Assembly (NCBI GenBank): GCA_963575715.1
Contig: CAUYTW010000363.1
Location: 1 to 49,982, forward strand
Length of the DNA: 49,982 nt
Reading direction: 5' to 3'
Source: Gammaproteobacteria bacterium
GTDB lineage: Bacteria > Pseudomonadota > Gammaproteobacteria > CAIRSR01
A program made the position numbers and the translations under genes. Under the pieces are notes generated by a model. It was not told the DNA's origin. It searched no databases and was given only the letters and a program-made list of their open reading frames with translations. The number at the start of each line of letters is the position of its first letter. Position 1 is the stretch's first letter. Of the stretch, positions 1 through 42,988 are shown piece after piece.

Positions 1-20
1 GACTAATGTTGAGGAATTAT

Positions 21-55
21 CCCTCACCCCCGGCCCCTCTCCCAAAGGGAGAGGG
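21..55. repeat. GC-rich intergenic hairpin repeat
   Basis: A run of C-rich sequence ends in a perfect 9-bp stem (CCCTCTCCC / GGGAGAGGG, positions 35-43 and 47-55) with an AAA loop. Similar C-rich palindromes are common intergenic repeats in many proteobacteria. No T-tract follows, so it is not a typical terminator. It lies 150 bp upstream of the sugar dehydratase gene. Confidence 0.5.
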
Positions 56-65
56 AAGAAAGGCA

Positions 66-85
66 AATAGGTAGCAACTTGAGTT
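66..85. repeat. Solo end of the 93-bp MITE family H
   Basis: The sequence ATAGGTAGCAACTTGAGTT matches the terminal inverted repeat of the MITE copies at 13409, 37866 and 39972 at nearly every base. The matching left end is not visible: it would fall at about the window start, and the interior here (the C-rich hairpin) does not match the other copies. It is therefore a solo or rearranged end. Confidence 0.45.
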
Positions 86-12583: not shown

Positions 12584-13405
12584 ATGACTGATATTCAAGG
12601 TATTATTGAATCTGCATTTGAACGACGCGCTGAAATCACTCCACGTAGTGTTGAAACTGTAGTCAAAGACGCGGTGGAGGAGGCTATTTATTTATTGGAT
12701 ACTGGTTGTGCCCGCGTTGCAGAAAAACGCGATGGTGAATGGGTAGTAAACGATTGGTTGAAAAAAGCGGTGATGCTTTACTTTCGTATTGCCGATAATT
12801 CTTTTCTTAAAGGGGGATTCACTAATTATTTTGACAAAGTTCCCGCTAAATATTTTGATTACAATTCTAAAGAATTTCGTGATGACGGTGTACGGATTGT
12901 TCCTCCGGCAACGGCGCGATACGGAGCTTATATCGCGCCTTCGGTGGTATTAATGCCTTCTTATGTCAATATCGGAGCTTACGTAAATACGGGCACCATG
13001 GTGGATACCTGGGCCACGGTGGGTTCCTGCGCCCAAATCGGAAAAAATGTTCATCTTTCGGGAGGAGTTGGTATTGGTGGGGTATTAGAACCAATTCAAG
13101 CTCTGCCCACGATTATCGAGGACAATTGTTTCATTGGTGCTCGTTCCGAAGTTGTGGAAGGGGTCATCGTCGGTGAGGGTTCAGTAATTTCGATGGGGGT
13201 ATATCTTGGACAGAGCACTAAAATTTACGACCGCACCACTGGCCAGATTACTCACGGCCGTATTCCTCCGCGCTCAGTGGTAGTTGCGGGGAATTTACCC
13301 TCCGCAGATGGAAAATATAGTCTCTATTGTGCCGTCATCATCAAGCAGGTGGATGAAAGGACGCGCGCTAAAACAGCAATCAACGAGTTGTTGCGGGATA
13401 TTTAA
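12584..13405 (+). CDS. dapD: Tetrahydrodipicolinate N-succinyltransferase
   Basis: Transfers succinyl from succinyl-CoA to tetrahydrodipicolinate in the DAP pathway. Length 273 residues, against 274 in E. coli. An N-terminal helical domain is followed by a left-handed beta-helix from about residue 100 to 225 made of hexapeptide repeats ([31 protein letters not shown] region), including the conserved G-A-R-S-E-V segment. ATG start with GGAG 10 nt upstream. It is co-oriented with dapC and is the second gene of a likely dapC-dapD operon. The stop codon touches the 5-bp target duplication of MITE copy H2. Confidence 0.96.
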
Positions 13406-13408
13406 TTT

Positions 13409-13501
13409 AACCTAAGTTGCCACCTATTCGTGGTTACAATGTTTTCGCTACATTCATTCACGGTGGATGCGGCTTCAGTGGTATAAGTAACAACTTTGGT
13501 T
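13409..13501. mobile_element. H2: 93-bp MITE with 5-bp target duplication
   Basis: Terminal inverted repeats AACCTAAGTTGCCACCTAT and, on the other strand, AACCAAAGTTGTTACTTAT. It is flanked by a perfect direct repeat AATTT (13404-13408 and 13502-13506). Same length as H1; its interior aligns with H1 and H3 in reverse orientation (core GCCGCATCCACCGTG on the minus strand). It lies between dapD and the membrane protein gene. No coding capacity. Confidence 0.75.
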
Positions 13502-13642
13502 AATTTAGTCTTACAAATTGATTAACCCTCGCGGGTTCTCCCGCCCCGTCTAGTATCATTAATAAACAAGCCACGGCTGCTGTTGTGGGTCTCACTATTA
13601 ATTAAAAAATCCGTCAGACCGAAAAATCCGAGAAAAATATTT

Positions 13643-37865: not shown

Positions 37866-37957
37866 AACTCAAATTGCCATCTATGTCCTTAACGCTGCAT
37901 TCCACTGTGGCATTCTGGTGGAAACCTCGTAACCATGGATAGGTGGTAACTTGGGTT
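37866..37957. mobile_element. H3: 92-bp MITE copy
   Basis: Ends AACTCAAATTGCCATCTAT and, on the other strand, AACCCAAGTTACCACCTAT form the family inverted repeat. Interior GCTGCATTCCACTGTGG aligns with H1. No clear target duplication, unlike H1 and H2, so it is probably an older copy. Confidence 0.65.
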
Positions 37958-37992
37958 GCTATAAATTACTTGGAAAATCTTATATCATTATC

Positions 37993-38548: not shown

Positions 38549-38597
38549 ATGACATTTCAATCCCGCGCTCCGCGCTCTGCATTTTATGGAGTTTCCT

Positions 38598-39809
38598 ATG
38601 TCTTCGGTAAAAAAAGTTGTGCTTGCCTACTCTGGTGGGCTGGATACTTCAATTATTTTGAAGTGGTTGCAAGAACAATATCATTGTGAGGTAGTGACTT
38701 TCACCGCCGATATCGGCCAGGGAGAAGAACTAGAACCCGCGCGCGCCAAGGCCGAAAGCATGGGGGTTAAAGAGATTTATATCGAAAATCTGCGTGAGGA
38801 ATTCGCACGCGATTTTGTTTTTCCCATGTTTCGGGCGAATACCATTTACGAGGGTGAATATCTGCTCGGCACTTCCATCGCCCGCCCGTTGATTGCCAAA
38901 CGCTTAGTTGAAATCGCTATCGCCACCGGCGCCGACGCTATCTCGCATGGCGCGACTGGCAAGGGCAACGATCAGGTGCGCTTCGAGTTGGGGGCCTACG
39001 CTTTGCGGCCTGATATCCGCATCATCGCACCATGGCGGGAGTGGAGCATGGCTTCCAGGGAAGACATGCTGGTCTATGCCGAGCGGCACAATATCCCCAT
39101 TGAGCGCAAGCGCGGTGCCCTGTCGCCTTATTCTATGGATGCTAACCTGCTGCATATTTCCTATGAAGGTGGTCCGCTGGAAGATCCCTGGATCGAGGCC
39201 GAAGAAGCACTCTGGCGCTGGACCGTGGCACCGGAATGCGCACCAGACGTGCCGCGTTATGTGGAAATTGCCTTCCGTGGCGGAGATGCTGTGGCCGTGG
39301 ATGGCGAGGAACTTAGCCCCGCCAGTCTACTCGCCACCCTGAACGCACTGGGTTCGGCGCATGGCGTGGGACGCTTGGATCTTGTGGAAAATCGCTATGT
39401 GGGAATGAAATCGCGCGGCTGCTACGAAACCCCTGGCGGAACGCTGCTGCTCAAGGCTCATCGCGCATTAGAATCACTGACTCTCGACCGTGAAGTGGCC
39501 CACCTCAAGGATGAATTAATGCCCCGCTATGCGAGCTTAATTTACAACGGCTATTGGTGGTCTCCCGAGCGACGTATGCTCCAGACCATGATCGATGCTT
39601 CCCAGGAACATGTAAATGGCAAAGTGCGTCTCAAACTCTACAAAGGCAATGTCAGCGTGGCCGGACGCGCATCTGCGGATAGTTTATTTGATTCCAGGAT
39701 AGCCACTTTCGAGGATGATCGTGGCGCTTATGATCAAAAAGATGCCGCTGGTTTTATTCGTCTCAACGCTCTACGGATGCGCATCGCTGCGCGTTGTCGC
39801 GGAAATTGA
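38598..39809 (+). CDS. argG: Argininosuccinate synthase
   Basis: Condenses citrulline and aspartate with ATP cleavage in arginine synthesis. 403 residues, the length of the short (type 1) form. N-terminal PP-loop is [12 protein letters not shown] (about 6-17), then [44 protein letters not shown] and [20 protein letters not shown] 38598 is preferred: GGAG lies 8 nt before it and the protein then starts [17 protein letters not shown] 38586 is in frame but lacks a ribosome-binding site. Monocistronic here; K3 forms the upstream region. Confidence 0.96.
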
Positions 39810-39903: not shown

Positions 39904-39971
39904 CTACAGAACATTATGCTGAAACAAAAATTTCTGTAACAGTCAAATTGAACCAAGTCGAGTGATCAATT

Positions 39972-40064
39972 AACCCAAGTAGCTACCTATACCTCTTTAG
40001 CCGCATTCCACCGTGGGCGTTGTGGCGGAAATATCATTATTACGAATAGGTGGCAACTTGGGTT
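39972..40064. mobile_element. H1: 93-bp MITE with 5-bp target duplication
   Basis: Terminal inverted repeats AACCCAAGTAGCTACCTAT and AACCCAAGTTGCCACCTAT (minus strand) with 17 of 19 matches. Flanked by perfect direct repeats CAATT (39967-39971 and 40065-40069). Core GCCGCATTCCACCGTGGGCG. It sits between argG and the hybrid kinase gene. Confidence 0.78.
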
Positions 40065-40207
40065 CAATTGGGACTTTCTCCCTGTAGTAGCCAAGCTTGC
40101 AGAATCAAGGGGTGTAAACGGTTTATGAAATAAAACTCATAAGCCCCGGCATTTATTAAAAGCAGCGTTTCATTTTGAATCAAGAGATATTCACGCCGAG
40201 GATCTTT

Positions 40208-42988
40208 ATGAACACTTTTTCGACAATTCACCTGGGTCGTTGGATATCAATCATCGTAATTTTTTCGTTCTTCATTATGGTATTGCTTTCTACTTTTTTT
40301 CACGTTTGGCAGATAACAGCGTTTGTAGAAGCAAACTCTTTAGAATCGATCCGTCATCGGATAGCAGATGAAAAAGCTCATATTGAACTTTTATTTAGAA
40401 TAGGTGAGCCTGATTTGGTTACTGAGGAAATGGTACGGCTCAATTCTGACCCTGGTGTTGAGCACGTAATGCTTATCAACGAAAAAGGGCAAATACTTTA
40501 TGACACGAATCGAGCCAATTTTGGTCAAGCTATGTCAAAAATTTTACCAGTATTTGATCCGTTGCTTTTAGAGGTTAATCAACACGAGCGTCACTTAAAG
40601 ATTATATTTGATATTGATCATAAGCATCTTTTAGCCTATCAACCAATAGCTATCAAAGAGTTGGTCGGTAAAATTCGTCCTGATGCGATAGGCGGATTAT
40701 TACTGAATTATAATTTGAGTTTAACTAAAGAACTAGCTCTAAAAGAAATTGTAATTGCAAGTTTAGTTGAGTTAGCCTTTGCAATCATGATAATGCTAGC
40801 TATGATACTGATATTCCACTACTGGCTAACTTTGCCTCTGACTTATTTACGGAAGATGGTTAATTATATTGGTGAGGGTAATTTCACTAAGGCCGTTCGG
40901 ACTTCAGGACGAGGTGAATTAGCTAAATTAGCTACAGCCATCATCAGAATGCAGCATGATCTTGCAGTCGCAATCGATAAACATAAATTAACACAAGCCG
41001 CTCTTCAGCGCAGTATAATTTTTGCAAATGCTACTATTGATGCAGTTTCAAATCATATTTGTGTATTGGATAAAACTGGAAAAATTTTAGCAGTAAATAA
41101 GGCATGGCGGGATTTTTATATCGTAAACTCATCCGTATCAAAACAGGAAAATTATTATATCGGGGAAAACTATATAGCGATTTGTGATCGATCTGCAAGT
41201 AAACATTGCAATGAAGCAAAATTAGTTTCAGACGGAATACGCAAAGTAATCAATGGCGCGATGGATGTTTTTTTCATCGAATATCCATGCAATAGTAATT
41301 TAGAAGTCAGGTGGTTTCTTGTCAGAATCAGTCGATTTAATGACGACAGTGGCAATGTCGTTGTTTCCCATGAAAACATTACGGAAAGAAAAAAAACAGA
41401 AATTGAACGTGAACGGCTCCTCAAAATAATTATGGAGGCTCCAGATTTTATTGCTTGTTCAGATATGGAGGCGCATCTAACCTTCCTCAATCCTGCCGGC
41501 GCCAGACTGGTTGGGCTTCCAGACAATGTCGACTTAACTCCTTTGCAAATTAAAGATATGCACCCTCAGTGGGCTACAACGCGGGTTTTGGAAGAAGGTG
41601 TCCCCGCCGTGCTGCAACAAGGTTACTGGCAAGGAGAAACCGCTCTGCGGAATAGGCTGGATGGTCATGAAATCCCTGTTTCGCAATTATTATTGGTTCA
41701 TCGTGATGGGAATGGCGTCCCTCAGCAACTGTCCACCATTATGCGAGATATTACCAGTTTCAAACAGGCCGAGCAGGCATTAATACAAGCGAAAGAATCC
41801 GCTGAAATGCTCGCGCGCACTAAGTCAGAATTTCTTGCAAATATGAGTCATGAAATTCGTACTCCAATGAATGCCATTATCGGTTTGTCACATCTGGCAT
41901 TGGACAAAAATTTATCGATTGAAGTTCGTGACTATCTTGAGAAAATTAATGCTTCTTCCGAAAGCCTATTAGGTATTCTGAATGATATTCTGGATTTTTC
42001 AAAAATTGAAGCCGGTAAGCTCTCTATTGATAATACTGCCTTCAAACTTGTCAAAATGCTTGGTAATCTACATAATCTATTTTCTGTCAAGGCAGAAGCG
42101 CAGCATCTTAGTTTTATAATTGAGGCACCTTCCAATATTCCAAACAAGTTGATCGGTGATGCGTTACGGATACAGCAAATTCTTGCTAATTTATTGGGTA
42201 ATGCTATCAAGTTTACCCAACAGGGACGCATTAATCTAAAACTGCGATTACTGGAACAAAAAAAATCACAAGTCAGACTCGACTTTAGTGTCAGCGACAC
42301 TGGAATTGGAATTAGTCAGGAAGATCAGGCCAAATTGTTTCAACCATTCAGTCAGGCCGATACATCCATTACTCGCCGCTTTGGTGGAACCGGTTTGGGT
42401 TTAGCCATTAGTCGCAATTTGTTACAATTAATGGGTAGCGATCTTCATGTTGATAGTATTCCAGGTCAAGGTACTACTTTCAGCTTCAAACTATGGCTAG
42501 AGGTAGCCACCGCTGATTCGAACCCAACAGTCAACCGCAGCCAACATGAACGAAAACCCCATGCGTTATCCGTCAAGCTACGCGAATATGCTCAAACCAT
42601 TTCTGGAACAAGAATTTTAGTCGCTGAAGATAACAGCATTAATCAGCAGGTTGTGAAAGGCTTCCTGCAATTGGCGGGGGTAACCGTTGATATTGCTAAT
42701 AATGGAATTGAAGCTATACAGTTTCTGGAAAAAAATCAATATCACGCCATTCTGATGGATGTGCATATGCCACTAATGGACGGTATTGAAACGACTAAAC
42801 AAATTCGTAAACAAGCTCAATATGCACAATTACCGATTATTGCTTTGACGGCTGGTGTGACCACAGAAGAGAGAGAACGTTGCCTCGCTTGCGGCATGAA
42901 TAATTTTGTCGCTAAACCAATTAATCCAGAAGAGCTGATCAATTTACTACAGCAAAGGATTCATCCTGAACCTATCGAAAAGAATTAA
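40208..42988 (+). CDS. Membrane-bound hybrid sensor histidine kinase
   Basis: 926 residues from ATG 40208 (GAGGATC upstream). A transmembrane helix at about 10-35, a sensor region of ~150 residues, a second helix near 190-215 and a HAMP-like segment (LTYLRKMVNYIGEGNF). Two PAS domains follow (about 260-390 and 400-520), then HisKA with His548 ([10 protein letters not shown]), HATPase with DTGIGIS and GGTGLGLA, and a receiver with Asp851 (LMDVHMPLMDG). No HPt, so it needs a separate phosphotransfer protein. No response regulator or HPt gene is next to it. Very AT-rich compared with argG. Confidence 0.9.
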   Translation: MNTFSTIHLGRWISIIVIFSFFIMVLLSTFFHVWQITAFVEANSLESIRHRIADEKAHIELLFRIGEPDLVTEEMVRLNSDPGVEHVMLINEKGQILYDTNRANFGQAMSKILPVFDPLLLEVNQHERHLKIIFDIDHKHLLAYQPIAIKELVGKIRPDAIGGLLLNYNLSLTKELALKEIVIASLVELAFAIMIMLAMILIFHYWLTLPLTYLRKMVNYIGEGNFTKAVRTSGRGELAKLATAIIRMQHDLAVAIDKHKLTQAALQRSIIFANATIDAVSNHICVLDKTGKILAVNKAWRDFYIVNSSVSKQENYYIGENYIAICDRSASKHCNEAKLVSDGIRKVINGAMDVFFIEYPCNSNLEVRWFLVRISRFNDDSGNVVVSHENITERKKTEIERERLLKIIMEAPDFIACSDMEAHLTFLNPAGARLVGLPDNVDLTPLQIKDMHPQWATTRVLEEGVPAVLQQGYWQGETALRNRLDGHEIPVSQLLLVHRDGNGVPQQLSTIMRDITSFKQAEQALIQAKESAEMLARTKSEFLANMSHEIRTPMNAIIGLSHLALDKNLSIEVRDYLEKINASSESLLGILNDILDFSKIEAGKLSIDNTAFKLVKMLGNLHNLFSVKAEAQHLSFIIEAPSNIPNKLIGDALRIQQILANLLGNAIKFTQQGRINLKLRLLEQKKSQVRLDFSVSDTGIGISQEDQAKLFQPFSQADTSITRRFGGTGLGLAISRNLLQLMGSDLHVDSIPGQGTTFSFKLWLEVATADSNPTVNRSQHERKPHALSVKLREYAQTISGTRILVAEDNSINQQVVKGFLQLAGVTVDIANNGIEAIQFLEKNQYHAILMDVHMPLMDGIETTKQIRKQAQYAQLPIIALTAGVTTEERERCLACGMNNFVAKPINPEELINLLQQRIHPEPIEKN

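Follow-up and report, generated by a model that had tools for sequence, protein, structure and literature searches.

A 93-bp MITE family of a gammaproteobacterial genome and its probable mobilisation by an IS982-family transposase

The window analysed, a stretch of 49,982 nucleotides (positions 1 to 49,982 of contig CAUYTW010000363.1, assembly GCA_963575715.1) from a probably uncultured member of the Gammaproteobacteria, carries three copies of a short repeat, here called H1, H2, and H3. H1, delimited by sequence reading and blastn, is 93 bp long (39972–40064, minus strand with respect to the consensus orientation of the family) and is located downstream of argG (ORF 38586–39809) and upstream of an ORF for a hybrid histidine kinase (40175–42988); matches to the end pattern place its left terminal inverted repeat, AACCCAAGTAGCTACCTAT, at 39972–39990 and its right one, AACCCAAGTTGCCACCTAT as read on the minus strand, at 40046–40064, and the element is flanked by CAATT on both sides (39967–39971 and 40065–40069). 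H2, also 93 bp (13409–13501, plus strand), lies between two copies of AATTT (13404–13408 and 13502–13506), directly at the stop codon (TAA at 13403–13405) of ORF 12584–13405, which by its family we take to be dapD-like. If the H2 duplication is read as TAATTTA (13403–13409), it includes this stop codon; in sister genomes a dapE-like gene directly follows the dapD-like gene, and here another ORF is found there. H3 (37866–37957, minus strand) is 92 bp long and has no duplication, its flanks being ATAAT and GCTAT; 27 bp of its right flank (37960–37986) match, at 93% identity, the right subterminal region of an IS982 copy on contig C329 of the same genome, described below. The two 19-bp ends match each other at 17 of 19 positions in H1 and at 15 of 19 in both H2 and H3. 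The main points of an earlier note are thereby confirmed: two 93-bp elements with inverted ends of about 19 bp and exact 5-bp flanks, and a third element of 92 bp. The window holds six end matches at ≤3 mismatches, with 0.00 expected in shuffles. The “solo end” that had been counted with the 93-bp family is matched at 67–85 and belongs to a different, non-autonomous element of ~164 bp with the same end sequence; its right half occupies 1–85 (plus strand), the left half is missing because the contig begins at base 1 of the window, and the 85 bases compared show one difference to a copy on another contig (L064, C39:4496–4659).

The genome (3.70 Mb in 363 contigs, 99% complete) contains ~35 homologous copies of the repeat; blastn with H1 gave 38 matches at E ≤ 0.001, some of which are IS ends. 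The end sequence itself occurs 191 times at ≤3 mismatches, versus twice for a reversed control pattern. Copies are mostly 92–94 bp long and their mean column identity is 79% in an alignment of 32 rows (31 MITE copies and one IS982 right end, L052). Being short, transposase-less, present in many copies and bounded by terminal inverted repeats, with target-site duplications as detailed in the following, the element is a MITE, as it had been interpreted before.

Duplications were assessed in 40 insertions, that is, end-paired elements with independent flanks, longer elements with the same ends included and duplicate flanks removed; the 86-bp elements of contigs C13 and C343 were left out of this set as IS982 right ends. 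An exact repeat of at least 4 bp flanks 20 of the 40 (4 bp in 13, 5 bp in five, 6 bp and 7 bp in one each), versus 4.5 expected from mismatched flanks and never more than 11 among 1000 shuffles; repeats of at least 5 bp flank seven, versus 0.63 expected and a shuffle maximum of four. The other half of the insertions has no detectable duplication by this measure. These counts speak against flanking repeats arising by chance, the outcome named earlier as a refutation, and the lengths of 4–7 bp are incompatible with a uniform duplication of 5 bp. A T precedes the left repeat in 19 of the 20 cases and an A follows the right repeat in 18, in flanks consisting of 37% T and 36% A. As the element begins with A and finishes with T, either boundary could be shifted by 1 bp, and two frames fit nearly equally: a 93-bp element with duplications of 4–7 bp at T...A targets, or a 91-bp element, ACCC...GGGT, with T...A duplications of 6–9 bp. 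In the latter frame the left repeat of H2 becomes TAATTTA and the flanks of H1 become TCAATTA and TCAATTG, which favours the 93-bp frame unless one base has mutated.

Intact duplications had also been taken to indicate that H1 and H2 are recent, but the best other copy is only ~84–85% identical to H1 and ~83% identical to H2. Some activity has been more recent, as two independently inserted copies (on C266 and C330) share 99% identity; the copies on C54 and C266 have their flanks in common and represent one duplicated segment. Among 56 genomes (the genome itself and relatives), the 93-bp body is confined to its own species: outside it, a search with a 93-bp copy yielded only short end matches in one genome of the same genus, and a plasmid collection searched with H1 gave no match. 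A clean empty site was not found, the intergenic flanks of H1 and H2 being too diverged to align in the three closest genomes (G001–G003). The ends are distributed more widely. At ≤2 mismatches, 437 were counted in G001 (same genus), 144 in G002 (same family) and none in G003; the copies read in G001 differ widely in their interior, and several MITE families thus seem to use one transposase-recognised end. The 19-bp end was also seen in Poribacteria, Pseudanabaena, Thermus, Parabeggiatoa, Thiomargarita, Chlamydiota, and others (loci L101–L220); such ends are often paired 100–200 bp apart and come with no transposase match, which makes them candidate MITEs in several phyla.

Ends starting with ACCC, combined with AT-rich duplications of variable length, raised the suspicion of IS982, a family whose ends begin with AC in 57 of 69 elements, with direct repeats of 2–10 bp (Fayad et al. 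2020, PMC7335449) and an inverted repeat consensus of AC(N)6T(N)5TT (PMC7335449). The NCBIfam profile NF033520 matched 18 times in the genome, four times above the cut-off of 130 bits. On C329, a 272-aa ORF (189 bits; DDE domains PF13612 and PF01609 matched) lies in an IS982 copy with the ends AACCTAAGTTGCTACCTAT and AACTCAAGTTGCCACCTAT and the duplication (T)AAAATT(A). The longer element with the same ends and a DDE transposase, for which a genome search had been proposed, is therefore present and belongs to the IS982 family. The C329 copy measures 1207 bp; this length includes another repeat, which sits downstream of the ORF and makes the mobility of the copy itself uncertain. Several species of Thermus, Poribacteria and a MAG of Rubrobacter likewise have IS982 genes bracketed by the same 19-bp end; those proteins from Thermus and Rubrobacter that were tested exceed the NF033520 cut-off, and the lengths of the elements (892–943 bp in Thermus, 927 bp in Rubrobacter), like that of the C329 copy, are within the 845–1282 bp known for IS982. 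The MITE and the linked elements resemble the family in ends that begin with AC and in variable repeats within 2–10 bp, the linked elements also in a DDE transposase of ~270–300 aa (PMC7335449). The MITE differs from it in having no transposase and in fitting the consensus only partly (PMC7335449): AC and T9 match, while positions 15–16 are CT, not TT. Its ends begin with ACCC in the 91-bp frame and with (A)ACCC in the 93-bp frame, and both its 4–7 bp repeats and the 6–9 bp repeats obtained with the bounding T and A fall within the range of the family.

Because ends, style of duplication and resident IS982 transposase genes with the same ends agree, the repeat can be regarded as an IS982-type MITE, and a transposase of this family is, judging from sequence, most likely the one that moves it. 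We hold with high confidence that H1–H3 belong to one MITE family, non-autonomous, ~93 bp long and specific to the species, which is moved in trans by an IS982-family DDE transposase via ends of ~18 bp, at T(4–7 bp)A targets. The transposase, supplied in trans, would recognise the ~18-bp ends and insert the element at AT-rich T(4–7 bp)A sites, which would generate a short target duplication of variable length. We infer both the mobilisation in trans and current activity. Weighing against this reading are the half of the insertions that lack a duplication, the failure to find a clean empty site, the uncertain mobility of the C329 IS, the incomplete assembly of the multi-copy IS982 at the ends of contigs C1 and C50, and the MITE interiors, which outside the ends do not resemble the C329-type IS. 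A simple origin of the MITE by deletion from an IS of the C329 type was considered and rejected, since similarity ends with the terminal repeats. The repeat that sits in the C329 copy (L071 ~2262–2517, with an apparent CCTATTA duplication) is a second high-copy repeat with the ends GGAGTTACGCAGTTGAA; it was seen at ~40 places, mostly 83–97% identical to the one on C329. The interruption of the C329 IS copy by a 167-bp MITE seemed to offer a test for an empty site within the IS, but the right flank is no continuation of the IS.

If H1 and H2 are taken literally, the MITE could belong to some other DDE family, one whose duplications are truly 5 bp long (e.g., Tn3-like, IS1634, IS1380), the likeness of the ends to IS982 being accidental. 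This is very improbable, since the 19-bp ends are common to NF033520-positive elements of this genome and of other phyla and begin with ACCC like IS982, and since the duplications vary in length and are bounded by T and A.

Just as improbable is a structured intergenic repeat (a transcribed hairpin, REP- or BIME-like) kept for regulation, the spread of which merely looks transpositional. The position of H1 between genes and of H2 at a stop codon would suit this; the folds of H1 and of the consensus surpass all 200 shuffles (z −3.2 to −4.3), and the 7-bp inner stem keeps its pairing through 14 double-sided changes, versus 6.9 in shuffles, a value reached in one of 500. The alignment used for covariation took in one IS982 right end (L052), and the shuffle statistics ignore relatedness; taken together, the folding and the covariation of the inner stem are a hint of RNA function, not evidence. 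Folding of H2 and H3 is weak, covariation of the outer stem is no higher than in shuffles, and, above all, duplications and ends common to a transposase-bearing element require transposition, although a secondary regulatory role may exist beside it. That a duplicated segment is flanked by repeats through chance alone, a reading to which AT-rich flanks (4-bp matches being common there) and the C54/C266 pair would lend themselves, is scarcely credible, the counts given above exceeding every shuffle with duplicate flanks removed.

For a MITE probably moved by an IS982 transposase, the relation to one particular IS982 subtype of the genome is peculiar. In three copies, on C13, C334, and C343, the stop codon of the transposase gene is directly followed by a segment of 86–88 bp that has end-like sequence on both sides and, from start to finish, aligns with the MITE family; the MITE is, in other words, homologous along its full length to the right-terminal ~86 bp of this subtype. 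In another subtype (C293) and in the IS982 of the sister genomes G001 and G002, what comes after the gene is a short tail of unrelated sequence that has one end. A 459-bp IS982 on C330, with most of the gene deleted, has a right end that resembles the segments of C13, C334, and C343 and whose match to the MITE extends past the ends into the interior. On contigs C1 and C50 the sequence breaks off within the left end or the start of the gene of the subtype with the MITE-like tail, which would be consistent with a collapsed multi-copy IS absent from the assembly in full. The three IS982 copies are 95–96% identical, the MITE copies ~80%; a tree built from MITE copies together with IS ends is unrooted and gives the order of events no polarity, the IS ends forming one group (97/92) and the rest being star-like. 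It is conceivable, though we would rate it at somewhat below an even chance, that IS982 captured a pre-existing MITE as its right terminus, by an insertion just past the transposase stop with loss of the old end, so that IS and parasite exchanged ends. Alternatively, going by the same alignments, the MITE may have been born from the right end of this IS982 subtype. The greater age of the MITE copies (~80% versus 95–96% identity) leans toward MITE first and capture later; it suggests this order but does not show it.

Further elements were encountered. The second non-autonomous element, of 164–167 bp and with IS982-type ends, was seen at L064:1501–1664, L067, L058, and L071:377–543 besides its truncated copy at 1–85 of the window, and the copies read carry an internal CCCTCTCCC...GGGAGAGGG module; a 91-bp element at L056 contains a similar module of the CCCTCTCCC...GGGAGAGGG type. 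On contig C136 of this genome (G000; 3382 bp), matches at 278, 1211, 2144, and 3077 suggest that the contig consists of four tandem units of 933 bp; this may be an artefact of assembly or else a small circular element.

The 93-bp repeat is a new MITE family, and IS982-type MITEs as such have already been described: MITECca01, related to ISCca4 of the IS982 family in the Cardinium endosymbiont cOegib, is the precedent (PMC9769881). As far as the part of that description considered here goes, MITECca01 is likewise non-autonomous and multi-copy, has ends nearly equal to those of a resident IS982, and shows little internal similarity to its parent, with deletion intermediates present; it differs in length (~240 bp versus 93 bp) and in residing in an arthropod endosymbiont, its ends being likened here by description, and that part mentions no IS whose right terminus is MITE-like (PMC9769881). 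The hupL MITE of Candidatus Thiomargarita nelsonii, the genome of which holds the present end sequence (L132), also has a 19-bp inverted repeat and comes from a sulfur gammaproteobacterium, but its 10-bp direct repeats and the proposed link to PD-(D/E)XK set it apart, by description, from the 93-bp MITE (PMC4853749).

A previously unassigned repeat is now linked to a transposase family, IS982, and another IS982/MITE pair is added to that of Cardinium. Where targets are AT-rich, a count of 5 bp can conceal an IS982-type duplication that varies from 6 to 9 bp. The IS982 copies ending in a MITE-like module, finally, provide a concrete case for the question whether MITEs arise from the ends of insertion sequences or become them.
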